IMG/VR virus record: IMGVR_UViG_3300046538_000287
Coordinates: 1-55,902 of that record
DNA: 55,902 bases
Source: a virus
Direction: 5' to 3' (one strand)
Below are positions 4,550 through 55,902 of this stretch, piece after piece. The stretch's first letter is position 1; the number at the start of each line of letters is the position of its first letter. The notes under the pieces are model-generated. The model searched no databases. It was not told where the DNA came from and was given only the letters and a program-made list of their open reading frames with translations. The position numbers and the translations under genes are program-made.

Positions 4550-5971
4550 TTAAAGGCTGTTTGTTAACGCGGCTTCTTTTTCACTTTCTCGGCACATACT
4601 CCATAAGCTCGACAATTGCTTTTTCACCTGTCCAGCAACCGCCTCCTCCCAGTTATGTTCCAGAATAAATTCCCCTGTTTCGTCTAAATCGACTGGCACA
4701 TTTAGCCTCAGCGCGGTCTGAGAGTATTCACTGATGTCGGCCTCATCGTCGAAATGGACCGCCAATCCACCGAATAGACTCTCCATAAAAAGCTGCACTA
4801 ATCTCATTATGGAAGCTACAAGTTTCGCAATACGCTCCTTTTCCCAATCTATTTCAACTTCGGTTCTTGATTTTTTACGCATGCTGTAGGTCATGCCGAA
4901 ATTGAAGCCTATGAAAAACTCGGTTCGGTCGTACGAATGATGCATACCAACACGCCTTGAATTTTTTCTAATGTATGATTTTAAGTTTTTACTAGGAGGA
5001 TTAATCTTTATATACGTACGGAACAATGCACCATCGTTTTGCAATGAGTACACATCAGGATTAGCCGTTGCACTGCCTATACCAAGCTTTGTGTTGTCTC
5101 TAGATGGAAGGTATCTTACGCCGCAATTTTTTTGAAGACTCTGCCAGGTAAGCTTTGTAGACATGATTGTGCTGCCGGTAATCCAACGACCGTATTGCCG
5201 ATCTAGTCTATAACTAATACCTTCTACAACACCAAACTTATCGCGAACTCTAATCTGAACACCACGTTCCGCAAACCTATCAACCAATTGAGACATGTTC
5301 AATGGACGATTGCTCGCTTTGAAGATCTCTTTAGAAATACCGCGAATGATATGTGCCTGGTCTTTTTCAGGATCTCCTTTATACGTTACTTCCTTACTCC
5401 AACCGTCACTAACAGGAGCTTTCAAATCATACTCCCGCTCTATAGCTCTGGCAGCATCCATCCCCTTGAGCCTATCGTTGCTATCACTCACAAGCTCAAA
5501 GTGACCTCCTAGTGCCGCACGTGGACTCGAAGAATTTGACTGCACAAACTTCACTCTCGATGAGACAATATGAACATGCTCCAGCTCAGTATCTCTGTGT
5601 ATAACCGCAACATATTTTGTGGTGTCATCGTAGCCTAAATCCCACATGTATTTTTTTACCACATCTACCCACTCACTTCTTGTAAGCGACTCACCTTTCG
5701 CTAACGACAAAATGTAATGTCCGCACAGCCTATTGCTTTCTCCCTTATATAGTGACGTAAAGGATTCAAATTCCTTGATTATAGGCTCAACATCAACAAA
5801 AATTTTTCTTTCACCTCTATCAAATATTTCGTGAAATGGATTGCTAGAAATCAAATTACCACCGAGAAACTCAACGAGCTTTCTTTTTTCGACATCTTGG
5901 GCTCTTGCTGCGAATTCGTATACCAGTCTATTCCTAAATGTAGCAGAAAATTTTTTACTTTTACTTATCAT
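4550..5971 (-). CDS. Relaxase / mobilisation nuclease (MobP-like)
   Basis: 473 residues. The region around residues 85-140 carries the HUH metal-binding signature of relaxases: H125 followed by H132-V-H134 (HRDTELEHVHIV). Y18 is a candidate catalytic tyrosine by position, not proven. Relaxases nick one strand at oriT, stay covalently bound and start conjugative transfer. The C-terminal half (about 220-470) has no helicase motif, so this is a mobilisation-type rather than a TraI-type protein. The small GRPKK protein at 5993-6349 just upstream fits a relaxosome accessory factor. No type IV secretion genes are in the window, so transfer would need a helper. Confidence 0.82.
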   Translation of the reverse strand: MISKSKKFSATFRNRLVYEFAARAQDVEKRKLVEFLGGNLISSNPFHEIFDRGERKIFVDVEPIIKEFESFTSLYKGESNRLCGHYILSLAKGESLTRSEWVDVVKKYMWDLGYDDTTKYVAVIHRDTELEHVHIVSSRVKFVQSNSSSPRAALGGHFELVSDSNDRLKGMDAARAIEREYDLKAPVSDGWSKEVTYKGDPEKDQAHIIRGISKEIFKASNRPLNMSQLVDRFAERGVQIRVRDKFGVVEGISYRLDRQYGRWITGSTIMSTKLTWQSLQKNCGVRYLPSRDNTKLGIGSATANPDVYSLQNDGALFRTYIKINPPSKNLKSYIRKNSRRVGMHHSYDRTEFFIGFNFGMTYSMRKKSRTEVEIDWEKERIAKLVASIMRLVQLFMESLFGGLAVHFDDEADISEYSQTALRLNVPVDLDETGEFILEHNWEEAVAGQVKKQLSSLWSMCRESEKEAALTNSL

Positions 5972-8239: not shown

Positions 8240-9499
8240 TCACCCTAACTCTAAAGAGGCGCCCTTCCCCGGATCGGCGCCTTTTTCTTTTCCGTTGCCG
8301 GTCAAAAAACCTCTGAGGCGATGCTTAACCGAAGTCTTCGTAAGCGGAGCATCAAATCTGAAATCTACGACTTGGACACCATTGTCACTGCAAAGACGGC
8401 GCTTCAGTTCATCCCGCTCCAGAACACGTCTGTGGGCTTCGTCACCGCCGAATACCGAAATTGGCCTGTAATGCTGCTCACCTTGGTGTTCAACAGCCAG
8501 CTTTAGCTCCGGAAGATAAATGTCTATACGCATCCTGCCCAACCATTCTGGGGTTGCTTCACGCAATATCCTGTGATCGGGAAATAGCTCCCTCACGAAA
8601 CCATAAAGAGCTGACTCTCTCTGCCAACGGCTAAGACCAAGGATATGCATAATCTCTGCGCGAGCGGTCTTTCTATCAACGCCAAGGTCGTACATGACCT
8701 GATCAATATACGCGTCGAAGTTTTTTTCAACCGATGCCCCGTAACGCTCATCCTCTGCGTCCCTCCTCGCAATACAGAGGTGGCAAAGCTCATCGAGATA
8801 TTGGCAAGCCTTGAGCAGATCAGAAAACGTATTTTTAGTGATACCCACTGTATCTATCTGGTCCATGAATCCAGAGTGAAAGCTTCGTGAGCAGCCGCAC
8901 AAATGCTTTTGGCCATTGATCATGTTATCGAACGAGACAACTCGATGGTCAAGCAAGCCCGCCATCGGATCTAAATTGGCAATCAAAGGCTGTGGAGTGC
9001 TGTTGTCTCTAACCAGCGTATCCAGAATCGATTGGAAGACCGATCTTCCGATACTTATATGGTTGATTCGGAAGACATGATTGACCTGGGTTTTCAGTTG
9101 TTTGATTTTCAGCTGGGAGATGCGATTTATCCCACCACCGTAGTTGATGGGAATGAGGCTCATCTCTTCCGCCTCTAGGTGGACCTCATCGAACGTGTCG
9201 TCCAAACGGGTGGACAAGCTAATCTCGCAGTACCACGTCTCGTAGCCCGTCCTGAGAAGCTCTGGAAGCGTGGCATAGCGTCTTTTGAAATACATCGAGT
9301 GGAATTTCACTGCCGGTGGCTTGATCAGTCGATCAGAGAAAGCTTCGGCAAAACGCTCAAAAAGATGAGATTCGATAGCACGCTCAATCGCAAGAACAGG
9401 CGTCATCCCTGGCGTCTCAAGATCGCGAACAACAGGATTAACCAGCCTCATACCGTCAAGACGAACCTGGATTGCACCCTTCCCCTCACCCCCTGCCAT
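8240..9499 (-). CDS. Protein with C-terminal Vsr-like / PD-(D/E)XK-type nuclease domain
   Basis: 419 residues. The C-terminal part (about 320-400) has RMRIDIYLPELKLAVEHQG, then E-R-D-x-L-K-R-x-L-C and VVDFRF, the arrangement of very-short-patch-repair-like nucleases: D at the end of strand 1, E-x-Q in strand 2, then the ERD helix. Residues about 195-275 include several Cys/His (CGC and CHLC motifs), possibly a metal site. The N-terminal 190 residues are unrecognised. Its last codons overlap the terminator of the convergent mvaT-like gene. It is the last gene before the broken tRNA-Leu. Confidence 0.7.
   Translation of the reverse strand: MAGGEGKGAIQVRLDGMRLVNPVVRDLETPGMTPVLAIERAIESHLFERFAEAFSDRLIKPPAVKFHSMYFKRRYATLPELLRTGYETWYCEISLSTRLDDTFDEVHLEAEEMSLIPINYGGGINRISQLKIKQLKTQVNHVFRINHISIGRSVFQSILDTLVRDNSTPQPLIANLDPMAGLLDHRVVSFDNMINGQKHLCGCSRSFHSGFMDQIDTVGITKNTFSDLLKACQYLDELCHLCIARRDAEDERYGASVEKNFDAYIDQVMYDLGVDRKTARAEIMHILGLSRWQRESALYGFVRELFPDHRILREATPEWLGRMRIDIYLPELKLAVEHQGEQHYRPISVFGGDEAHRRVLERDELKRRLCSDNGVQVVDFRFDAPLTKTSVKHRLRGFLTGNGKEKGADPGKGASLELG
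8257..8287 (+). terminator. Intrinsic terminator of the GRP/MvaT-like operon
   Basis: Stem AGGCGCC (8257-8263) pairs with GGCGCCT (8276-8282), followed by a T-rich run. It ends rightward transcription and lies inside the 3' coding end of the convergent gene. Confidence 0.85.
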
Positions 9500-36584: not shown

Positions 36585-37735
36585 CGTCTTGCTCCTTTCG
36601 CGCCGTGCGCAGTTCCAGATTGAGCCGCTTGTCGCGAAGCCCAGATCGAGTTGGGATCAGGTTGTTTGGCCAGCACCTTCGGTGCTGGGTCGTTGTCCAG
36701 CGGCAGGCTGTTATCGATTTCAAAGCCCTTGCCACTGGTGACGATTTTGTCGAACAGACGCGCCCGGACCGCCGCAGCATCCAGCCCCGCTGAAACGTAC
36801 TCGGCGCTGAACTCCGGCAAACGCGCCGCCACGCAAAGGTCATTCACCACCTTGGCGCGTGCCAGGCCGGCCAGAACAATCTCTTCGCTTTCGAGCTGGG
36901 TCGAGTTGAGCAGCGGCTCGACCAGGTTGCTGATGCCCGCCGCCGTGCAACGCTGGGTGATCATCAGTGCCAACTTGGCCGAATCGACCACCACCGGCAC
37001 TAATGGCGGATCGATCGGCTCCAGCTCCGGATCCGGCTCGGGTGGCTCGTCGAGCTGGGCCAGCAACTCAGCCGGTGCGTGCTGGTAACGCTGCAACACC
37101 GCGCCTTGGCCGAGGCATGCTTTGACCTTGATGCCGTCGCCGACTTCATCGGCCAGGCCCAGGGCCAAAGCTTCATTGGCCGTCAGCCAGGTTTCGGCGT
37201 TGACCATTCGACGCAGCTCGGCGTCATCGATGTTCGGTGCCTTGGCCTTGTAGGCCGCGATGATCGCCTCCAGGGTCTGATCCAGGACATCAGCGACTCG
37301 ACGGAAGTCCTCAGCATCCCCTCCGGCATAGGTGTAAGGGTTGTGAATCATCAGCATGGCGTTCGACGCAATGACTACATGGTGTGCACCGCACACCGCC
37401 ACGCTGGCCGCACTGGCCGCCAAGGCGTCAATCCGTCCGGTGCAACGCTCGCCCAGACGCGACAGCGCGTTGTGCATCGCCAGCCCGTCGAACAAGTCGC
37501 CGCCAATGCTGTTGAATGCCGCAATGACCGGAGAGACTCCATCATCCATCGCACGCAGATCCTGCACGAACTGATTGGCAGTAATGCCCCAGGTACCGAT
37601 CTCGCCATAGACAAAGACTTCGATCACCCGCTCAGCGGCCTCGCCGCTTGCCTGCAACGCGTACCAAGTCTTGTCCTGAACCTGCACCCGCTGGCCCGCA
37701 CGGTTGTAAACGCGCGGTCGCGCTTTCTTGCTCAT
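36581..37735 (-). CDS. Head maturation protease, ClpP-type, with scaffold-like C-terminus
   Basis: 384 residues. The protease part (about 35-200) has FNSIGGDLFDGLAMHNAL, a likely nucleophile S108 in ALAASAASVA and H131 in LMIHNP. The C-terminal half (about 230-384) is helical and probably contributes scaffolding, as in lambda C/Nu3. It processes the prohead before packaging. It overlaps the portal and decoration genes by four bases each. Confidence 0.93.
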   Translation of the reverse strand: MSKKARPRVYNRAGQRVQVQDKTWYALQASGEAAERVIEVFVYGEIGTWGITANQFVQDLRAMDDGVSPVIAAFNSIGGDLFDGLAMHNALSRLGERCTGRIDALAASAASVAVCGAHHVVIASNAMLMIHNPYTYAGGDAEDFRRVADVLDQTLEAIIAAYKAKAPNIDDAELRRMVNAETWLTANEALALGLADEVGDGIKVKACLGQGAVLQRYQHAPAELLAQLDEPPEPDPELEPIDPPLVPVVVDSAKLALMITQRCTAAGISNLVEPLLNSTQLESEEIVLAGLARAKVVNDLCVAARLPEFSAEYVSAGLDAAAVRARLFDKIVTSGKGFEIDNSLPLDNDPAPKVLAKQPDPNSIWASRQAAQSGTAHGAKGARR

Positions 37736-39213
37736 GGTTGCTCCTTGTCATCGTTGGTGACGATGGCGTCGAGAGTGTTGTAATTAAGGCCAAGGGTCGT
37801 GGCGCGTTGCAGATCAGCCGCGTTTTCCGCATCGACCGTTTCCGCGTCATAGCCGGTGCGCAGGACCATCTCGCTACGCGAAGCGAAACCGGCTTGCACT
37901 TCCATGCGACGGGCCTGAACGTCCTGCACCGGCTGGATGTAGGCCCAACCTTGTGGCACCCAACGAGTACGCAGGTATTCACGGCGCCGCTGGGTGTAGT
38001 CCTCCAGCACCAGCACACCCGACAACACGGCCATGTCCATCCAGGCCGCCCGCACTGGGCGGCAGAGTTGGTGCACGTAGACACCGAATTGCAGTTGCTC
38101 AAGCCGACGCCGAAACTCGTTGAGCACCACACGCAGCGCCCGGTCGTTGACCTCGCGCATGTCGCCGGTGAGGATCTCGTAAGGCGTCCCTGTCCCCGCC
38201 GCCGCAGCCATCAGCTGCTGCCGCATGAAGTCCGGATAGTTGTTGCCCGCATCCGGCGGTTTGGAGAACTCCACCTCTTCACCCGGCCCCAGCTCCTGCA
38301 TGGTGCCGGGCTCCAGCGCCACCATCGGCGTGAAGCCATCACGGTCAGTGCTCAACAACTGTCCGGTGAGTGGATCCCTGGGCACTGGTCCGGAGTCCGG
38401 AGCCGGCCGACTGATGAAACCGGCAAACAGGTTGGCCACCTCCTGACGGAACAACACTGCGTCGTCGTAGTTGTCGAGACTGCGCAGACGCTTGAGCACC
38501 GGCGACAATCGCGGCACGCCGCGCAGCTGACCCGGCTCGATCGGCTCAAAGATATGCAGCACCTGTGACGCAGGCACGCGCACCAACTGGTTGTAACCGG
38601 CGTTCAGCGACGACGCATCGCGCGGATGCGACAGGTACATCCAGTACGCTACCCGCTTGCCACCCGGTGTGAACTCGATCCCGGCGCGGATGATGTTGCC
38701 GGTTTTGGTGGTTTCAAACTTGTCATGCGGTACGAACTCCGGGGCCAGGATCTGGAGCTGCAGCGGTACCGCGAGGCCTTCGTCCAAAGCGCGAGGTCGT
38801 AGCCGCACAAAACATTCACCTGAAGTTTCTACCGTGCGCGCCGCCAGCGCCTGCTGGCCGTAGAAGTCGGTGCACTCATCGGCGTCCGACTCATCGACCC
38901 AGTCGTCCCAGAGTTCCTGCAGCAATTTGCGCAGGACTTCGTCGTCGGTTTTCGGTCGCGGCGTGATGCCGGTACCGATCAGGTTGCTGACGCGCTTATC
39001 AATCACGTTGAAGGCATACGGGTCATTGCGAACCGCTGCCCGGGAGCGCGAACGCAAGTTACGCAATGCCGGGGTGTTGATGCTGTTGACCCCGTTGTCG
39101 GGAGCATCCCAGCCAGTGGATCGTCGGCCCTCCCCGGCACCTTCGTAACTGGCCTTGATGTTCGACGGCAACACGAATCCGTTACGGGTGAGCGTCGGAA
39201 AGTGACGGGCCAT
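37732..39213 (-). CDS. Portal protein (lambda B family)
   Basis: 493 residues. RNDPYAFNVIDKRVSNLIG, LLQELWDDWVDESDADECTD split over about 90-110, GKRVAYWMYLSHPRD and FEPIEPGQLRGVPRL are typical lambda B-type blocks. It forms the dodecameric DNA channel and packaging-motor base. It directly follows the W joining gene. Confidence 0.95.
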   Translation of the reverse strand: MARHFPTLTRNGFVLPSNIKASYEGAGEGRRSTGWDAPDNGVNSINTPALRNLRSRSRAAVRNDPYAFNVIDKRVSNLIGTGITPRPKTDDEVLRKLLQELWDDWVDESDADECTDFYGQQALAARTVETSGECFVRLRPRALDEGLAVPLQLQILAPEFVPHDKFETTKTGNIIRAGIEFTPGGKRVAYWMYLSHPRDASSLNAGYNQLVRVPASQVLHIFEPIEPGQLRGVPRLSPVLKRLRSLDNYDDAVLFRQEVANLFAGFISRPAPDSGPVPRDPLTGQLLSTDRDGFTPMVALEPGTMQELGPGEEVEFSKPPDAGNNYPDFMRQQLMAAAAGTGTPYEILTGDMREVNDRALRVVLNEFRRRLEQLQFGVYVHQLCRPVRAAWMDMAVLSGVLVLEDYTQRRREYLRTRWVPQGWAYIQPVQDVQARRMEVQAGFASRSEMVLRTGYDAETVDAENAADLQRATTLGLNYNTLDAIVTNDDKEQP

Positions 39214-39419
39214 TAGAGTCCTTTGCCTCCGTGGGTCAGCCTGACCACGCGCGAGCGCGGCCCGGCAGCATTGATCAGCGACGAGCGGATTTCCTCGCGA
39301 GCCTTGAGCAGCTCGTCGACGGTGCGGTACTCCACGGTGCGGTCGGTGTAGCGCACGACTTTTTCACCACGTGCGATGGCCGCCTCAACCGCATCGAGGT
39401 GCTTCTGGGTAAATGACAT
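39213..39419 (-). CDS. Head-tail joining protein (lambda W-like)
   Basis: 68 residues, matching lambda W in size. HLDAVEAAIARGEKVVRY followed by VEYRTVDELLKAREEIR is the family pattern. W binds the filled head before tail joining. Its stop shares a base with the portal start. Confidence 0.92.
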   Translation of the reverse strand: MSFTQKHLDAVEAAIARGEKVVRYTDRTVEYRTVDELLKAREEIRSSLINAAGPRSRVVRLTHGGKGL

Positions 39420-39485
39420 ATTGGATCTCTTCAGATAGAGAGAGTGAAACGGGTTGGCTTGGGTGCGAAGTCGATAACCAACTGT

Positions 39486-40451
39486 TTAATCGCAGGCTTC
39501 GTCCCAAACCTTTGCCAGCCAGACGTTGTAGAACATCCGCATAAGCGATGCATCGCCATCGATTTGTTTGGCTCTGGCCCATTCATACTGCTTAGCAAGG
39601 TGTGTCCACCCCAGCCAACCGGGCGGCGAATAGAGTGCATTGAGATGGAAACCACTCGTTTCGCCGTCGCCTTCCGAATGAGAACGCCACTCGCCCAGAC
39701 TGAGCATCTCACCCAAATGGTGTTCTGCGATTGGAGAGCTACAGAAGGCGTTTATGCACCGGTAATGCACCGTCTGAAAGTCAGACGAATACTGCATTTG
39801 TTCCCACTCCAAAGTTTGCATGTGGTCGCAATGAGGGCACGGCACGTAGTAGTGGCGCTGATCGCTTGCTGAGAACAAGCTATCAATCTTTGAGTTATCT
39901 TTGATTGTCGGTGTACCAGTGAAATAGAACTTTGGCGCACGGACTGACGTATCGTGGCAACGTTCAGCCAACTCGATTAAGTCGACGCCTTCCTCAGGCC
40001 AATGGTCTATTTGTTCACCACAGACATAATCAACGGGGAACGCTTGACCGACCAACGAGCCTGCCCAAACTAAACGAAGCGAACCGCCTTCAAAAGACCT
40101 GGTGCACGCGCCACCGCGAGGCGAAAAACATTTGTGAAGGATCGGACTCGCCTTAAAGCTTTTGTTGATGCGGTAGCCCAGTCGCGCTGCAAGGCGACCT
40201 GTAGGCAGCAAAACCAATATGTTCGATGGCGATGTATGGACCAGGGATCCGATCCAGTTGATAGCAACCTGAGTTTTCATCAACCCCGAAGCGGCCATGA
40301 CCACCACTCGCTTGCAAGGGTGGGTCAGTGAAAGACACCGCATTGGCTCTTGGGCATATGGTGTTTTTTTTACACGGTACGGACCCGGCTCAAGGCCGGA
40401 ATCTCGCGGGATCCACATATGCTTAGCAGCCCACTCATCGACATAAGTCAT
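39486..40451 (-). CDS. Second terminase-large-like ATPase-domain protein, nuclease-less
   Basis: 321 residues, starting directly after the TerL stop (TAA-ATG) and in the same frame. It aligns with TerL residues 29 to about 345, then stops after LAKVWD, so the whole nuclease domain and the TerL N-terminus are absent. Kept: the deviant Walker A (ASGLMKTQ, about 54-61) and the zinc-like Cys set C205, C208, C232, C237. Changed: Walker B D178-E179 of TerL is E146-Q147 here, and the loop before it (TerL 132-147) is shortened. It is more AT-rich and well diverged, yet the frame is intact. Role unknown; possibly a regulatory or structural motor subunit, or a decaying duplicate. Confidence 0.85.
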   Translation of the reverse strand: MTYVDEWAAKHMWIPRDSGLEPGPYRVKKTPYAQEPMRCLSLTHPCKRVVVMAASGLMKTQVAINWIGSLVHTSPSNILVLLPTGRLAARLGYRINKSFKASPILHKCFSPRGGACTRSFEGGSLRLVWAGSLVGQAFPVDYVCGEQIDHWPEEGVDLIELAERCHDTSVRAPKFYFTGTPTIKDNSKIDSLFSASDQRHYYVPCPHCDHMQTLEWEQMQYSSDFQTVHYRCINAFCSSPIAEHHLGEMLSLGEWRSHSEGDGETSGFHLNALYSPPGWLGWTHLAKQYEWARAKQIDGDASLMRMFYNVWLAKVWDEACD

Positions 40452-42455
40452 TTAACGTCTCTTCAAGTAGCCGCTACTGGAACTACGGCGTTGAGGTAAT
40501 GCCGAGGGTCGCGATTGCACGACTGCAACAGCGGCTTGCTGGGTGGCAGCGGGGGTTGCTTGTTCGGCAGTGAGTCGTTCGCCTTGAACAGGTTTGACGC
40601 TCAAGGCGTCGTCAAATAGACCGGACTGCGCCAGGGACTGACGCACACGCTCCCAGTCGTGTTCCTTGTAACGGTTGAGACCCAGGTAATGCGCCATGGC
40701 CAGGCAATACACCATCAAGTCGAGCGCTTCGTTACGCTCGGCCTTGCCCTTGACCCACTCGATGCGCTTGTGGCCGCGGATGTAGCGCGCAACCTTGCGC
40801 TCCGCGACGCACTGATCAAAGAAGTCGTCCGGCAAGTCATTAGCGAAGTGCAACGCACCTGGCCCGGTAGGGAACGAATAACGGTTATAGATCCAGTCCT
40901 TGGCCGTGTCGGTACCGACGAACCACAGCTCGGCGCCGTTGCGTTCGGTCTGGCCCTTCCAGGTCACGTCGACCATCGACGGGCGCTGAGCAATCACCGG
41001 CTTACCGGGTTTGCTCGCGCCCTTGATGGCGAACACATTTCGCCAGCGGCGAACGCGGCAGAACTGGTAGACCTCATCGGTGTGGTGGCCACCGGAGTCG
41101 ACGGCTACCGCGAGAATGCCAAGACCGACACCGCAGGGATGGCGATATTTAGCCTTAAGCAATTCGTCCAACGCCGCCCAGGTGCGTTCATCTGCGGGAT
41201 CGCCCGAGACCACCTGGTAGTCGACGACCCAGCGCTCCATGCCGACGCCCCAGCCCATGGCCATGAACTCCAGGCGGTTGGCCTGGACGTCGACGGAGCC
41301 GGTGATCATCAGCACCGCCGCCGACAGTGAGCCTAGGGTGAAGCCTTCCAACCGCGCCCGCTGTCTAAGCTCATCGGCTTTGGTTTGCTCTTGTGCGCTG
41401 TCCCAGACCTTCGCCAGACGGGTGTTGTAAAACACCTGCATCGGTTCCAGGTCGCCTTTGGCCTGGGCTTTCTTGGCCTTCTCGAATTGTTTGGCCAGCG
41501 ACTTCCAGTCCATCCAGCCCAACGGCGAATACAGCGCGTTAAGGTGGAAGCCCACCGTCTCGCCATCGCCTTCGGCATGGGCACACCATTCACCTTTGGC
41601 GAGCATTTCGCCTTTATGGTATTCATCGATCAGCACATCGCAGTCAGGACCGGCGCACTGGTAATGCACGACGCTGTAGTCCTTCGAGTAATGCAGTCGC
41701 TCCCACTCAAGGATTTGCATGTGCCCGCAGCTCGGGCACGGCACGTAGTAGTAACGCTGGTCGCTGCCCTCGAAAAGGTCGGAGATCCGCGAGGCGCCCC
41801 TGATCGTCGGCGAGCTGGAGAAATAAAACTTCGCATTGCGGCCGAAGGTACTGCCCCGCGTCTCCGCCAGCTCGATGGGGTCGCCCTCTTCACCGATGTC
41901 CACTTCCCAGCGATCGATCTCATCACCGTAAACGTAGCGCGCCGACAGCTCCGAGAGGTTGGCCGCCGAGCCAGCGGTGGTCACGTACAACGACCCGCCC
42001 TCGAATTCCTTGGTGTCCATGGTGTTGCGCGAATCCCGCGAACGGCTGGACGCCACACGCTCGCGCAGTACCGGCGTGGCCTTGATGGTTTTGCCGATCC
42101 GCGACGACACCCGCTTGGCCAGGCCGAGGCTCGGTAGCAGAGTCAGGATATTGGACGGCGCCATGTGGATCAGACCGCCGATCCAGTTCAAGGCGATCTG
42201 CGTTTTCATCAGCTGCGAGGCGACCATGGTGATCACGCGTTTGCAGGGGTGAGCCGGCGACAGGCAGCGCATGGGTTCGCGGGCATAGGGCGTGCGGGAC
42301 GTGCGGTACTGGCCTGGCTCAGCGGCACCGGTGTCACGCGGGATACGCATGTACTCGTCGGCCCACTCATCGACCCAGACGTCCGGGTCAGGATGCAGCC
42401 CACGAAAATATGCCTCCCGGTACACCTCAGCACCGTCAGGGATTTCCGTGGGCAT
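40452..42455 (-). CDS. Terminase large subunit (lambda A / GpA family)
   Basis: 667 residues. The ATPase half has a deviant Walker A (MVASQLMKTQ, about 77-86) and Walker B YVYGDE with D178 and E179. A zinc-like region follows (CPSCGH at 240-245). The nuclease half shows acidic residues in SVDVQANRLEF, VAVDSGGH and DLMVYCLAM. The C-terminus is Gln/Ser-rich. It cuts concatemers at cos and pumps DNA into the prohead, recruited by Nu1, whose gene lies four bases upstream. Confidence 0.96.
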   Translation of the reverse strand: MPTEIPDGAEVYREAYFRGLHPDPDVWVDEWADEYMRIPRDTGAAEPGQYRTSRTPYAREPMRCLSPAHPCKRVITMVASQLMKTQIALNWIGGLIHMAPSNILTLLPSLGLAKRVSSRIGKTIKATPVLRERVASSRSRDSRNTMDTKEFEGGSLYVTTAGSAANLSELSARYVYGDEIDRWEVDIGEEGDPIELAETRGSTFGRNAKFYFSSSPTIRGASRISDLFEGSDQRYYYVPCPSCGHMQILEWERLHYSKDYSVVHYQCAGPDCDVLIDEYHKGEMLAKGEWCAHAEGDGETVGFHLNALYSPLGWMDWKSLAKQFEKAKKAQAKGDLEPMQVFYNTRLAKVWDSAQEQTKADELRQRARLEGFTLGSLSAAVLMITGSVDVQANRLEFMAMGWGVGMERWVVDYQVVSGDPADERTWAALDELLKAKYRHPCGVGLGILAVAVDSGGHHTDEVYQFCRVRRWRNVFAIKGASKPGKPVIAQRPSMVDVTWKGQTERNGAELWFVGTDTAKDWIYNRYSFPTGPGALHFANDLPDDFFDQCVAERKVARYIRGHKRIEWVKGKAERNEALDLMVYCLAMAHYLGLNRYKEHDWERVRQSLAQSGLFDDALSVKPVQGERLTAEQATPAATQQAAVAVVQSRPSALPQRRSSSSGYLKRR

Positions 42456-42459
42456 GGGT

Positions 42460-43017
42460 TTAACTCGTGGTCAGGGCGTGTTCAAGATCCGCCGAGGACA
42501 AGCGTTCTGCATCCTCAAGCGAGCGACGGATAGCGGCGGTCAGGTGCTTTTCGATTTGCCAGGGATCGGTCATGACGGCCAGTTCCGGTGCCAGTTGCGG
42601 GGGCATGCCCAGCAGCTGGTCCCGCAACAGGCGGCCTGCGTTGAAGGCGCCGGTTTCCACCGCGATACGCTCGACCAAGGTGCCCTGCTGTTTGTGGAAG
42701 TTGGCTTGCTCTTGCAGGGCCAGGTAATGCTCGCGCAGAGCCCGGGACTTTTGGAAGTCCACCGCCTGCCCGACTTGCGGCACCGCAGGTTCTTCGGCGG
42801 CGATTTCAGCCTCCCTTTGAAGGCGAAGCCGTTCGTGTCGGGTGGCGACGGCGGCTTTGCTTGGGTCGGCGGACTCGACCAGCAGGGCTTCGGTGGCTTC
42901 CAGCTCCACCTTGCCATCGTCGGTCAGTACCAATCGATCCTGATTGGCCAACTTGGACACATACGATTTGGCCCAGCCACGCCGTGCCGCAAACTCCGTT
43001 TTGCTGATTACAGTCAT
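42460..43017 (-). CDS. Terminase small subunit (lambda Nu1-like)
   Basis: 185 residues. The N-terminal winged-helix DNA-binding part (about 1-50) reads SKTEFAARRGWAKSYVSKLAN. A long charged helix (about 75-120) and a C-terminal GAFNAGRLLRDQLLGMPP region for TerL contact follow. It should recognise repeats near cos; GTTCAC-type repeats lie directly upstream (43053-43089). Confidence 0.92.
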   Translation of the reverse strand: MTVISKTEFAARRGWAKSYVSKLANQDRLVLTDDGKVELEATEALLVESADPSKAAVATRHERLRLQREAEIAAEEPAVPQVGQAVDFQKSRALREHYLALQEQANFHKQQGTLVERIAVETGAFNAGRLLRDQLLGMPPQLAPELAVMTDPWQIEKHLTAAIRRSLEDAERLSSADLEHALTTS

Positions 43018-43052
43018 GATGGAATGTCCTGTTCAGCTAATGAATACGGGGG

Positions 43053-43113
43053 GTTCACCTGTTCACCCCAGTTCACTAAGCAGGTGAACTGTCCGCTAAC
43101 ACTTTCCCGCGGG
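43053..43113 (-). promoter_or_regulatory. Candidate cos region: repeats upstream of the terminase genes
   Basis: GTTCAC occurs at 43053, 43061 and 43071, and GTGAAC at 43084. GTTCACCTG (43053-43061) and CAGGTGAAC (43081-43089) form a perfect 9-bp inverted pair. A CCCGCGGG palindrome is at 43106-43113. In lambda the terminase-binding cosB repeats lie just before nu1, the same place. No cohesive end can be read directly. Confidence 0.4.
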
Positions 43114-43181
43114 TTTCCGACCCCGTACCCCCCGAATAACCCCAGGGTCCCCGGCAGTTTTCGGCGCCCTGGCGCGATTTA

Positions 43182-43526
43182 TCACCCCTGTTCGCCGCTA
43201 GCAGGTGGCACTTCGGAAACGCCCAGCCGCTTGGCGGCCCAGCGTTCGTAAAGACCGATGGCGACATCTGCGCCGGCCATTGCGGTCAGGCAACCCAAGC
43301 TGCCCGCCGTCCAGATCGTCATGCCCGCGCCGATCATCAGCATCATCGCTGACACGCCGCAGACAATGCAGGCACCGGACCGAAGCGCCAGGCGTCGCAA
43401 CAACGCCCAGCCCCGCGCCCCGTCCTTGTCGGCGCGCCACATCTCTCCCGACACGCCACCGACCAATGCCAGGACGATCACTAACCAGATTGGCATCTCT
43501 GCCAGCGCTTGTTGCTCGTTCGTCAT
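43182..43526 (-). CDS. Phage holin-like membrane protein
   Basis: 114 residues from ATG 43526. Three hydrophobic segments are visible: about 12-28 (MPIWLVIVLALVGGVSG), about 50-65 and about 68-85. Charged C-terminus. Small multi-span proteins in this place of Pseudomonas prophages are annotated as holins; they open the inner membrane to the endolysin. It is the first gene after the terminator at 43546-43570 and the last before the putative cos region. Confidence 0.8.
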   Translation of the reverse strand: MTNEQQALAEMPIWLVIVLALVGGVSGEMWRADKDGARGWALLRRLALRSGACIVCGVSAMMLMIGAGMTIWTAGSLGCLTAMAGADVAIGLYERWAAKRLGVSEVPPASGEQG

Positions 43527-43545
43527 CGCCCTACTCCATAAACGC

Positions 43546-43570
43546 AAAAACCCGGCGCAATGGCCGGGTT
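43546..43570 (-). terminator. Leader terminator upstream of the late operon (tR'-like)
   Basis: Minus strand AACCCGGC pairs with GCCGGGTT, then TTTTTGC. It lies between the Q-like gene and the holin, where lambdoid phages place the Q-antiterminated terminator. Confidence 0.75.
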
Positions 43571-43749
43571 TGGTGTGTGGTGCTTGCCGCTCTTTGCGGT
43601 CGCACCTATCGAAGATGGGTACTTTTTACAGGTGGATTTTACTGGCAGCAAGCTAGTTTTAATGCCATGGAGCAATACGGGTGCAACGTGGGTGTGACGC
43701 AGGTGCAACAGGGGTACAACGCATTCAATCGGCTATCGCTTCTGGTGCC

Positions 43750-51743: not shown

Positions 51744-52811
51744 ATGCGCCAGAAGAAAGCCGCAAACCGGGATCTGCCGCCACGGATGATCCGCCGTAGC
51801 CGCAAAAGAAAGAACGGAAGTACCTGGGTGGGCTACTACTACAACGGTCGGGACGCCGAAGGGAACCGAGTCGAAATTCCGCTCGGCGGCGACCTCGATG
51901 AAGCCAAAGTCGAATGGGCACGTCTGGATCGCAAAGCCACACCCAAGCCTGCTCACCTGATGGGCAGGTTTTTCGACGACTACGAAAGAAAGGTCATCCC
52001 TGGGCTGAAGCCCGGCACCCAAAAGGACTACTTGAAAGGCCTCAAACAACTACGCAACGCGTTCGAATCGGCCCCTGTAGATGCGGTCACCCCGCAAGTG
52101 ATTGCCCAGTATCGCGACGCCAGAACAGCAAAGGTGCGCGCCAACCGCGAGATCGCCCTCCTCTCAACCATATTCACCTTTGCCCGCGAATGGGGGCTCA
52201 CTGAAAAGGCAAACCCTTGCGCCCGCTTGCGCAGGAACAAAGAAACACCCCGCGACTTCTACGCAGGCAAAATCGTTTGGGATGCGGTGTACACAGAGGC
52301 ACCGCCCGAGCTTAAAGACGCAATGGACCTAGCCTACCTAACCGGCCAGCGCCCCGCCGATGTGCTCAAAGCATCAACTGCCGACTTGAACAACGGGTTC
52401 CTGATGGTAGGCCAGGGCAAGACTGAGAAACGCCTGCGTATCCGACTACACGACGGCGCAGACGCATCAGGGCTCAGCATCTTCCTCGATGCCCTGCTCG
52501 AGCGCAAAGCCATGGCCGGTATCAGAAGTTCAAGCCTGATCACCAACCAGGCGGGCCTGCGAATGAGTTACGCAATGCTGAGAAATCGGTGGGATGAAGC
52601 CCGAGAAAAAGCAGCCGCGAAGGCCGCGGCCGAAGGTGATGCAACGCTTACCGCCGCGATCCGCCAGTTCCAATTCCGCGACATCCGACCAAAAGCTGCC
52701 AGCGAAATTGACGACATTAGTCATGCTAGCCGCCTACTTGGCCACTCAACTCAGGAGATGACGAAAAAGGTTTATCGCCGTGTTGGTGAAATTGTACGAC
52801 CCACAAAATAA
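51744..52811 (+). CDS. int: Tyrosine-type phage integrase
   Basis: 355 residues. An arm-binding N-terminus is followed by a SAM-like core domain (about 70-165) and catalytic residues R203 (LTGQRPADVL), K226, R315 (FRDIRPKAA), H334 (LLGHST) and nucleophile Y344 (VYRRVG). The usual H of the HxxR box is R312 here (RDIR). It integrates and excises the prophage; its 3' end marks the right limit of recognised phage genes. Confidence 0.95.
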   Translation: MRQKKAANRDLPPRMIRRSRKRKNGSTWVGYYYNGRDAEGNRVEIPLGGDLDEAKVEWARLDRKATPKPAHLMGRFFDDYERKVIPGLKPGTQKDYLKGLKQLRNAFESAPVDAVTPQVIAQYRDARTAKVRANREIALLSTIFTFAREWGLTEKANPCARLRRNKETPRDFYAGKIVWDAVYTEAPPELKDAMDLAYLTGQRPADVLKASTADLNNGFLMVGQGKTEKRLRIRLHDGADASGLSIFLDALLERKAMAGIRSSSLITNQAGLRMSYAMLRNRWDEAREKAAAKAAAEGDATLTAAIRQFQFRDIRPKAASEIDDISHASRLLGHSTQEMTKKVYRRVGEIVRPTK

Positions 52812-53056: not shown

Positions 53057-54007
53057 CTAGATTGAAGCACTGAATGGCAATGCTTTAATGTATCGCTCCA
53101 TGAATAGCCAATCTGGCGCGCCATGACCATCGACCGGCAGATACATTAAGGATTCTTTCATCCTCGCTATGCCCCACTTCCTCCCGTAACTATAACGGTA
53201 TCGCTCCTTCTTAATGAGAGCACATAAAAACAGCGCAACATATTTGTTGATATTGAATTTTGGCGTGAATATATGAACGTCTTCAGTCGAGCAAAACGGC
53301 TTATCCTGATAAAACGCATTAGCCACGCTATTTCCGTTACGAACTACGGAAATAACTCCTGCTTGGTGCATTGGCGCATGGTCGGTTTTACTTGTGACGC
53401 CGTTATTAAATTCTGAAGCGCTCACAAAAGGATATTTGCCTACGCCATTTAGCTCTTTTTTTCTCGGTCCGCGCCCTCTATCAATTTCAAATATGTCTTC
53501 ATATTTGAAAGGCTTCAAGGCGCTCAGGTCTAGCTCAACAATTTCGTCAATCAAGCTTTGTGAAATATTATCTGCGGCAGCTATATTGGCGTGCCTCACC
53601 CACTCAGGTACCGAGTCCAACGCAGGAATTTTTATTTCTGAAAGTGTTCTATTTGCCTGTCGACCATAATTATATCTATATTTATTTGCACGCAAGCAGG
53701 CGCAGTAGAATATCTTCTCCTGACTTGACATGTCGACTTTTGCAGTTAAATAATATAAGTCCCGACCACTATAGAAAGGTTCAGATTGCAAGAAAGACTC
53801 CATAACGGAACCTCCGCATGCGACTGTAATTGAACCAGCAGGAAGAGGATTTAAGCCCTCGACCAAGCAGATTCTTGCGGACACTCCGTTATTTTTTGCC
53901 GTTCGAGATACAAACGGCACACCATCAGGATCAACAACTTGCTTGTTTAGTTCAAGATTCGATCCGTATCTAACTTCAAACAAATCTGCAACGCTTACAA
54001 GCTTCAC
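53057..54007 (-). CDS. Specificity subunit of a BcgI-like Type IIB restriction-modification system
   Basis: 316 residues with two similar halves: positions about 1-140 (FEVRYGSNLELNKQ ... SGRDLYYLTAK ... KYRYNYGRQANRTLSEIKIP) and about 165-316 (FEIDRGRGPRKKELNG ... STEDVHIFTPK ... RYRYSYGRKWGIARMKES). Each looks like a target recognition domain of HsdS/BcgIB type. The length is close to BcgI B. It overlaps the methylase/nuclease gene by four bases. AT-rich, unlike the prophage. Confidence 0.88.
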   Translation of the reverse strand: MKLVSVADLFEVRYGSNLELNKQVVDPDGVPFVSRTAKNNGVSARICLVEGLNPLPAGSITVACGGSVMESFLQSEPFYSGRDLYYLTAKVDMSSQEKIFYCACLRANKYRYNYGRQANRTLSEIKIPALDSVPEWVRHANIAAADNISQSLIDEIVELDLSALKPFKYEDIFEIDRGRGPRKKELNGVGKYPFVSASEFNNGVTSKTDHAPMHQAGVISVVRNGNSVANAFYQDKPFCSTEDVHIFTPKFNINKYVALFLCALIKKERYRYSYGRKWGIARMKESLMYLPVDGHGAPDWLFMERYIKALPFSASI

Positions 54008-55902
54008 TCTGGTGCCTCCAAGTCATCCTCAAGCCCAGACTCATCAACTTCTAGAATTTCTTCCTCCCGCAAAATATTGAACACTAGAAATTTCTTTACA
54101 GCCTCCTCGAAGTCAGCCTTCAACACCCCGGAGTAATCTGTTTCCATATAAGCTTCTGCGCACCATTCGTCATCTGCAGTGACTTGTTTTTTAACACATA
54201 AGCCAGGTATATCTTCTCTGTTCTTATAGGAATAAAGCCATTTCTCTCTAATCTCCTCCCAGCGGCCGGAGAAGTCTGTCCGACCTTGCTGCTTGGTTTT
54301 CTCAAACCCATCATCTTTCCAATACCCAAACCACGTTTTTCTGCTTTCAGCTGCATGTGGTTTGTGAGCGGTGAAGACCATAATGCATGTGATAGTCCCC
54401 ACCGGGGTGAAAAGCTCATCAGGCATGGACATAACGGCTTCAAGGCAGTGTTTAGATAATAAGCTATGCTTTGTTTCATGCGGTGTTATCACACAAGACA
54501 TCGGAACAATGGCGATTCCTGTGCCCCCTACTTTCAAACAATCAAGCATGTGCTCAACGAAAGCTAGCTCATGAAGACCTTTCCCCTTCTGAGCATAAGG
54601 TGGATTTATCATTCCTATATCAGGCTGACGAGAAATAATCTCCTTAGTAATCGCATCATCAAAACAGCTTCCTTGATGCAAATTAGCTTTTCCATCACCG
54701 CGAAGAATCATATTACTTGCTGCAAGCGCATACATATTTGGTTGCTGTTCTACACCTATCAACCCGTATTGCTTTACTCTTGATTTCTCCTCATCGGTTA
54801 TGCATTTTTTAAACATTTGATGCATTGCGGAAACAAGGAAACCTCCGGTACCACAGCAGGGGTCAAAAACCGTGCTGTCCTTTTGCACGTTTGCAATTCG
54901 TGAAAAAAGATCTGTAATATGACGAGGAGTTAGAACGATTCCAAGTGCCTTTTTATCACCGCCTGTGTATCGCAGAAACTCGCCATAAAACTGGCCAATA
55001 ATATCGTAATCATGGTAGACACTTATGAACGGCCAGGCATGGATATTAATTTTGTCAATTAAGTTATAAAGCGGACTTTCACCCGTTAGTTTGTCCGCTC
55101 GACTCAATTCTGGATGAACGCGCAGAAATGAGTATGGCTGAATCATGTTTTGTTTTTTTGCGTGAGGTATATCAGACTTCTTGATTTCCTCCTCAATAGC
55201 ATCGCAGAGTTTCTCTGGCAGCTCGTCTGGGGTGTACACAGAAAATACTTTTGAGAAAACAAAATTACTTAAAGCAATCAAAACCCCGCTTACTAAAAGT
55301 GGCTTTTCACTTTCACTGAGTTTTGCGTAATCACGCATGTAATTGTGAAGATCTTTCGAGAAAGACATTAAATCCGAAAGGCGCCCTTTTTCAACCTCTG
55401 GATCGTAGGTTGCATGTTCGATTAGATTCTCAAAACCTATTATTTTATCGATCTGGGTGCCACTTTTATTATTCAAAGGCTTGTAGTCAGGAATTACGCC
55501 CGCTACGCTTCTAGGTTGTAAATATGTCGAAATACGCAAGCTGCCTTTTGTCTGTCCGCTACAGCCTATAGCGATGACATTAAACTCTTTTGCGAGATAA
55601 CTTGCGTAATGGAGAGCACCATCAGCAGCAAAATCTTTGGGGCAGTCCAAGAGTTCGCTAGCGTGCTTTTTATTATCCGCCTTGCATTCAAAAATGATTA
55701 CAAAGTCTTGTATTTTTTTTGATTTTATTATGAATTCCGGAGCACCTACGCCACCCTTTCCAGTTTTGCTTGCACTTCTAAGCAGGCTTTGTATTTTTGT
55801 ATTCTGACTTTTCTGCTCTTCAATTATTATATCTTCATTGTCGAAGTAACCAAGATTTCTGAGCGTATCCCTAACTATATTTTCAGTAATTCTTTCGTTC
55901 AT
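54004..55902 (-). CDS. Bifunctional nuclease/N6-adenine methylase subunit, BcgI A-like
   Basis: 632 residues, complete from ATG 55902 at the window edge. The N-terminus carries P55-E56, 15 residues, then E72-C73-K74, a PD-(D/E)XK variant like the PE...ECK of BcgI. The methylase part has motif I FDPCCGTGGF (346-355) and motif IV NPPY (433-436) of gamma-type N6-adenine methylases. BcgI A is of similar length and likewise combines cleavage and methylation. With its partner it should cut on both sides of the target. Confidence 0.9.
   Translation of the reverse strand: MNERITENIVRDTLRNLGYFDNEDIIIEEQKSQNTKIQSLLRSASKTGKGGVGAPEFIIKSKKIQDFVIIFECKADNKKHASELLDCPKDFAADGALHYASYLAKEFNVIAIGCSGQTKGSLRISTYLQPRSVAGVIPDYKPLNNKSGTQIDKIIGFENLIEHATYDPEVEKGRLSDLMSFSKDLHNYMRDYAKLSESEKPLLVSGVLIALSNFVFSKVFSVYTPDELPEKLCDAIEEEIKKSDIPHAKKQNMIQPYSFLRVHPELSRADKLTGESPLYNLIDKINIHAWPFISVYHDYDIIGQFYGEFLRYTGGDKKALGIVLTPRHITDLFSRIANVQKDSTVFDPCCGTGGFLVSAMHQMFKKCITDEEKSRVKQYGLIGVEQQPNMYALAASNMILRGDGKANLHQGSCFDDAITKEIISRQPDIGMINPPYAQKGKGLHELAFVEHMLDCLKVGGTGIAIVPMSCVITPHETKHSLLSKHCLEAVMSMPDELFTPVGTITCIMVFTAHKPHAAESRKTWFGYWKDDGFEKTKQQGRTDFSGRWEEIREKWLYSYKNREDIPGLCVKKQVTADDEWCAEAYMETDYSGVLKADFEEAVKKFLVFNILREEEILEVDESGLEDDLEAPE

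Follow-up and report, generated by a model that had tools for sequence, protein, structure and literature searches.

Why would a phage that encodes a complete large terminase (TerL) keep, immediately downstream of it, a second terminase-like gene whose product has lost both the catalytic glutamate of the ATPase and the nuclease? The question arises in a viral sequence of 55,902 nucleotides (IMG/VR record IMGVR_UViG_3300046538_000287, positions 1 to 55,902; this whole stretch of DNA is referred to here as the window). The virus record carries a late operon of lambda type, read from the minus strand in the order TerS, TerL, paralog, gpW-like adaptor and portal, and an integrase at 51744-52811. 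The relevant features are as follows:

42460-43017, minus strand: TerS, small terminase, phrog_57
40452-42455, minus strand: TerL, complete GpA-type large terminase with ATPase and nuclease, 667 aa
41919-41924, minus strand: Walker B of TerL, D178-E179
39486-40451, minus strand: TerL paralog, a 321-aa ATPase-core protein without the N-terminal 25 residues, nuclease and C-terminus of TerL (BLASTP, Pfam, AlphaFold2)
40269-40295, minus strand: Walker A of the paralog, AASGLMKTQ, residues 53-61, K59 kept
40011-40016, minus strand: Walker B position of the paralog, E146-Q147, Gln in place of the catalytic Glu (aligned with TerL and lambda gpA D178-E179)
39957-39959, minus strand: C165 of the paralog in place of Arg (TerL R200; alignment with TerL and lambda gpA)
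39741-39839, minus strand: zinc-ribbon-like segment of the paralog, Cys 205, 208, 232 and 237, kept in all paralogs
39420-39485, minus strand: 66-nt spacer 3' of the paralog, holding the gpW ribosome-binding stretch
39213-39419, minus strand: gpW-like head-tail adaptor Ad1, phrog_2545, the usual neighbour abutting TerL
37732-39213, minus strand: portal protein, lambda family

Elsewhere in the window, a type IIG restriction enzyme-methyltransferase with its specificity subunit lies near the prophage integrase (53057-55902, minus strand; PADLOC), and 8240-9499 on the same strand encodes a protein of 419 aa whose C-terminal domain is HNH/homing-endonuclease-like (PHROGs). The segment 4550-5971, also on the minus strand, weakly resembles MobP/TraI relaxases (NCBIfam 1e-9, well short of the cut-off) and perhaps belongs to a neighbouring mobile element rather than to the phage.

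The bounds of the 321-codon, ATG-initiated paralog frame were checked exactly. As a first-pass annotation of this DNA had stated, it begins directly after the TerL stop in the same frame (TAA at 40454-40452, then ATG). The same annotation had aligned the protein with TerL residues 29-345; the paralogy holds, and BLASTP sets the bounds slightly wider (paralog 2-319 against TerL 26-354; 55% identity, E=2e-123). Identity of the paralog to the lambda-gpA-type TerL encoded upstream is 55-57%. In Pfam, the paralog matches GpA_ATPase (3e-50), and its match to GpA_nuclease covers no more than the initial 52 positions of a 294-position model, its frame ending at about TerL residue 354, so that the catalytic nuclease is absent, as had been proposed. 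The AlphaFold2 model of the window paralog is confident (pLDDT 91.6, pTM 0.90), and its nearest PDB folds in Foldseek are the TerL ATPase domains of P74-26 and T4 gp17, with the Avs3-bound PhiV-1 terminase (PDB 8dgc) also among the matches. By sequence, no PDB relatives of the paralog were found, and PADLOC and NCBIfam gave no match to it.

The same gene recurs in nine IMG/VR contigs, window included, which represent three paralog lineages. A scan of viral contigs recovered two copies identical to that of the window (L003, L004), one at 89% identity (L005) and three at 62% (L006, L007, L008), and L091 (66%) and L236 (59%) emerged from two profile scans. TerL, paralog and gpW follow one another in this order in every contig that reaches far enough (the TerL of L004 is cut by the contig end). 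Because this order recurs in eight other viral contigs, the tandem arrangement is not due to chance, and an accident confined to one contig can be rejected. The TerLs of L006-L008, L091 and L236 are only 78-80% identical to the window TerL. A sequencing or frameshift artefact of a single TerL is likewise rejected, the complete TerL and the separate paralog both being open in independent contigs. The two genes lie on the same strand with a gap of 0-1 nt; the in-frame TAA-ATG abutment is limited to the window and L003-L005, and the ATG is one base off in L006-L008, L091 and L236. The +1 shift in L006, L091 and L236 eliminates a read-through TerL-paralog fusion.

In phylogenetic trees, the paralogs form one clade (100/100 support) apart from all TerLs and within the Pseudomonas-type TerL group (89/87); a placement of the clade among those TerLs and one next to them are not distinguished (p-AU 0.36). 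The paralog is carried by rare prophages of Pseudomonas type. It was found in none of 400 sampled genomes of one Pseudomonas-type host genus, 68 of which carry a related TerL, and annotated phage and plasmid records returned TerL matches only, none above 60% identity. A family-level search of 399 genomes at E<=1e-140 also recovered no paralog and, run without a positive control, proves little. A full-text search of open papers, with incomplete coverage of the literature, yielded no description of such a paralog.

Comparison with lambda gpA-type TerLs (PF05876 GpA_ATPase plus PF20454 GpA_nuclease) separates what has been kept from what has been lost. Shared features are the ATPase fold, the Walker A lysine-threonine, the zinc-type cysteines and the gene order TerS-TerL-[x]-W-portal, whereas the catalytic Glu, the nuclease and the N-terminal segment are missing; none of the paralogs has an equivalent of TerL residues 1-25. 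Alignment places E146-Q147 of the window paralog opposite TerL D178-E179, as first proposed, and TerL E179 opposite lambda gpA E179. Of 25 aligned TerLs, 24 have the catalytic Glu, as does lambda gpA, and the TerLs adjoining the paralogs all retain D-E. Every paralog carries an amide instead: Gln in the window and L005, Gln in L091, and Asn in the L006/L236 lineage. Recurrence of the gene order together with loss of the catalytic Glu, which the first pass had named as a check, is thus borne out across nine contigs. Four further positions (R200, G191, P193 and S214), invariant in the 25 aligned TerLs and common to lambda gpA, are replaced in every aligned paralog, R200 by a Cys that is fixed in all of them, and the conserved TerL SRSRD..NT loop is deleted. 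We considered R173 to D as a further inactivating change and discarded it, since lambda gpA has D at the same position.

The nucleotide-binding side has fared differently. The P-loop block (residues 47-74) is the best conserved block of the paralogs, which share 82% identity there; the matching TerLs share 86%. In the stretch that precedes Walker B, identity has fallen to 52% in the paralogs and is 85% in the TerLs. The nucleotide-binding loop has thus been retained while the hydrolysis side drifted. The window P-loop reads SGLMKTQ, and Walker A K84/T85 and the zinc-type cysteines are retained in the paralogs. The lysine and the zinc-type cysteines noted in the first pass (K59 and four Cys) are in place in the window; K59 is also present in L005, L006-L008 and L091, and is Asn in L236. 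The paralog is derived from the GpA TerL family yet is not a functional member of it, the catalytic Glu and the nuclease both being missing.

The L236 allele (IMGVR_UViG_2728368914_000001, paralog at 4578-5678) stands apart. Besides K59N, it has a C-terminal frame change that extends the protein to 366 aa and overruns gpW by ~45 nt. Since this copy lacks both the Walker A lysine and the usual C-terminal frame, either ATP binding is not universally needed or the allele is decaying.

Substitution patterns indicate that the gene has been selected as a protein. Between the window and L005, omega is 0.34 for the paralog (bootstrap 0.22-0.55) and 0.04 for the ATPase part of TerL; other paralog pairs give 0.17 (window-L091; 0.10-0.24), 0.15 (L005-L006) and 0.30 (L006-L236). 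Across all pairs and estimators the range is 0.11-0.48, below 1, so that the dN/dS check named in the first pass is also positive, with dS values near or above 1 being approximate. In neutral simulations, 74 random substitutions on the L005 copy produced a mean of 52 and a minimum of 39 amino-acid changes (2000 runs), compared with 35 observed; 281 substitutions on the L091 copy produced 169 changes and ~9 stops, never zero stops, compared with 108 changes and no stop observed. The paralog is therefore constrained, though in the closest pairs the constraint is far weaker than that on TerL. Forming one clade with fixed residues of its own and an omega of 0.11-0.48, it is neither a fresh duplicate nor neutral junk. 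It fits a conserved pseudoenzyme, a putative pseudo-ATPase in which the catalytic residue has been lost and the fold and frame are under selection. This upholds the earlier proposal of a pseudo-ATPase, now with purifying selection and recurrence across three lineages; the slowly decaying duplicate offered beside it can be rejected for the whole family, the L236 allele alone looking partly degenerate.

How the gene arose is suggested by L091, in which the paralog is flanked by a 24-nt direct repeat (23/24 matching), GTTACCT[A/C]AAGAGACGCTGATATG. The repeat comprises the TerL 3' end and the next start codon, and its second copy closes the spacer 3' of the paralog. Such a trace is expected if TerL was duplicated in tandem long ago and the nuclease part was lost afterwards, and the repeat offers what may be a simple route to precise loss of the paralog. 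Strict co-inheritance of the paralog with its own TerL was considered and not upheld: the tree is broadly consistent with it, but between L006 and L236 dS is 0.20 for the paralog and 0.56 for the ATPase part of TerL, so the cassette appears to recombine between phages too. The paralog is, in sum, an old duplicate of a GpA-type TerL in which purifying selection keeps the open frame and the TerL ATPase fold.

The first-pass annotation took a place among essential head genes as favouring function. We compared 111 TerL-gpW junctions, comprising 31 loci from genomes around one Pseudomonas-type genome and the 80 closest IMG/VR TerL loci. TerL directly abuts gpW in 93 of them (28 genome and 65 IMG/VR loci) and an unrelated ORF is inserted in 15 (3 and 12); the other three IMG/VR loci are two of the paralog contigs counted above and one locus that is cut off at the junction. 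Abutting loci include L144 (G410:C101), where gpW adjoins a TerL whose frame is interrupted by a TGA, a broken prophage terminase. With this distribution, the argument from position fails, the paralog as an essential head gene by position is rejected, and the junction is a site for accessory genes (morons). The paralog is also dispensable, since phages with a 96% identical TerL do without it (in L154, for example, the junction is empty). A core motor role for a protein encoded at an accessory junction is unlikely. The third-position GC content of the paralog is low, as for accessory genes (GC3 0.50-0.60, versus 0.69-0.76 for TerL, in all lineages).

The alternative insert at the junction is an ORF of ~145 aa belonging to a fast-varying family of unknown function (phrog_2266), encoded antisense to the late genes; some loci hold another small ORF (phrog_25421) as well. 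The ~145-aa ORF is found in L115, L127, L138, L180-L182, L185, L190, L204, L211, L213, L216, L220, L226 and L231. These ORFs are probably expressed independently of the late operon and are candidate superinfection or defence morons.

We tentatively favour, at a probability of roughly 40%, a reading of the paralog as an accessory, moron-type, hydrolysis-dead TerL mimic that occupies something that normally binds TerL. Given the gene arrangement, the paralog would be translated right after TerL at comparable levels. Its product, presumably unable to hydrolyse ATP or to cut DNA, would present a TerL-like surface and so could occupy the partners of TerL, which might be TerL-directed immunity, satellites or the terminase itself. 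An outside, variable factor, such as an Avs-type NTPase or a packaging-hijacking satellite, is a more likely target than an indispensable component of the motor that the phage itself encodes, because relatives with near-identical TerLs lack the gene and because the paralog changes more quickly than TerL, in keeping with a gene shaped by conflict. Faster evolution and a patchy distribution also fit relaxed constraint.

P2-like phages and P4-like satellites have antiviral hotspots (PMC9122126). The paralog resembles phage morons and the variable cassettes of phage operons in having one fixed junction, absence from most relatives, alternative cargo and lower GC. It differs from them in being derived from the neighbouring gene and lying on the late-operon strand. 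A consensus scan of 39000-43600 showed no promoter-like site, so the paralog appears to have no private promoter, a further difference from those cassettes. A more specific form of the mimic reading, in which the phage makes, together with TerL, a decoy of its own terminase, as optional cargo beside the gene that is mimicked, against TerL-sensing immunity of the Avs type or satellite hijacking, is rather unlikely when taken by itself. The ligand that Avs3 recognises in PDB 8dgc, the PhiV-1 terminase, has the ATPase fold of the paralog, but the paralog lacks the nuclease domain.

The main rival, itself rather unlikely, is a pseudo-ATPase modulator of the phage's own motor, as the first pass had suggested. 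It would join TerL through ATPase-ATPase contacts to slow, pause or gate the ring, or take part in the maturation complex, and would do so as a subunit that naturally binds ATP without hydrolysing it. Ring motors can hold inactive paralog subunits, for example the inactive AAA+ subunits of clamp loaders. Like these, the paralog is old and conserved and has kept its P-loop, nearly as strictly as TerL, while losing the catalytic Glu; the shared ATPase fold, the retained zinc ribbon and a position suited to translation directly after TerL add to the case. Unlike these, it is accessory rather than obligatory, and its membership of a hetero-oligomeric ring is hypothetical. The N-terminal segment and C-terminus of lambda gpA bind TerS and the prohead, and the paralog has neither. 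Loss of R200 and of the SRSRD..NT loop should weaken ring contacts if these lie at the interface. The missing Walker A lysine of L236 and the absence of the gene from close phages with 96% identical TerLs also count against a motor subunit.

Less likely is a functionless, relaxed or decaying remnant of the old TerL duplication, which would persist because the tandem layout preserves the gpW ribosome-binding site. An omega about ten times that of TerL in recent pairs, the low GC3, the K59N and C-terminal frame change of L236 and the rare, patchy distribution are what such a remnant would show. Against it, the frames remain open at up to ~40% amino-acid divergence, the bootstrap upper bound of omega in the closest pair is 0.55, neutral change to the window-L091 divergence never left a copy free of stops, and paralog-specific residues are fixed across lineages. 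Least probable is that the protein acts as a dominant-negative inhibitor, poisoning the terminases of rival phages during co-infection or on prophage induction. An ATPase core that cannot hydrolyse is the classic dominant-negative subunit of a ring, and competition genes typically occupy accessory sites, but the paralog is equally similar to its own and related phages' TerLs (53-58%), which leaves selectivity unexplained. It is also placed for co-expression with its own TerL, and the consensus scan showed no promoter of its own from which a lysogen could express it.

Viral packaging ATPases have been described as homomeric rings (PMC9410871). A conserved, hydrolysis-dead TerL core encoded beside an active one would amount either to a packaging motor with naturally mixed subunits or to a decoy of a protein read by bacterial immunity. 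Both make it possible to test how subunits are coordinated in packaging motors and by what means phages evade defences that sense TerL.
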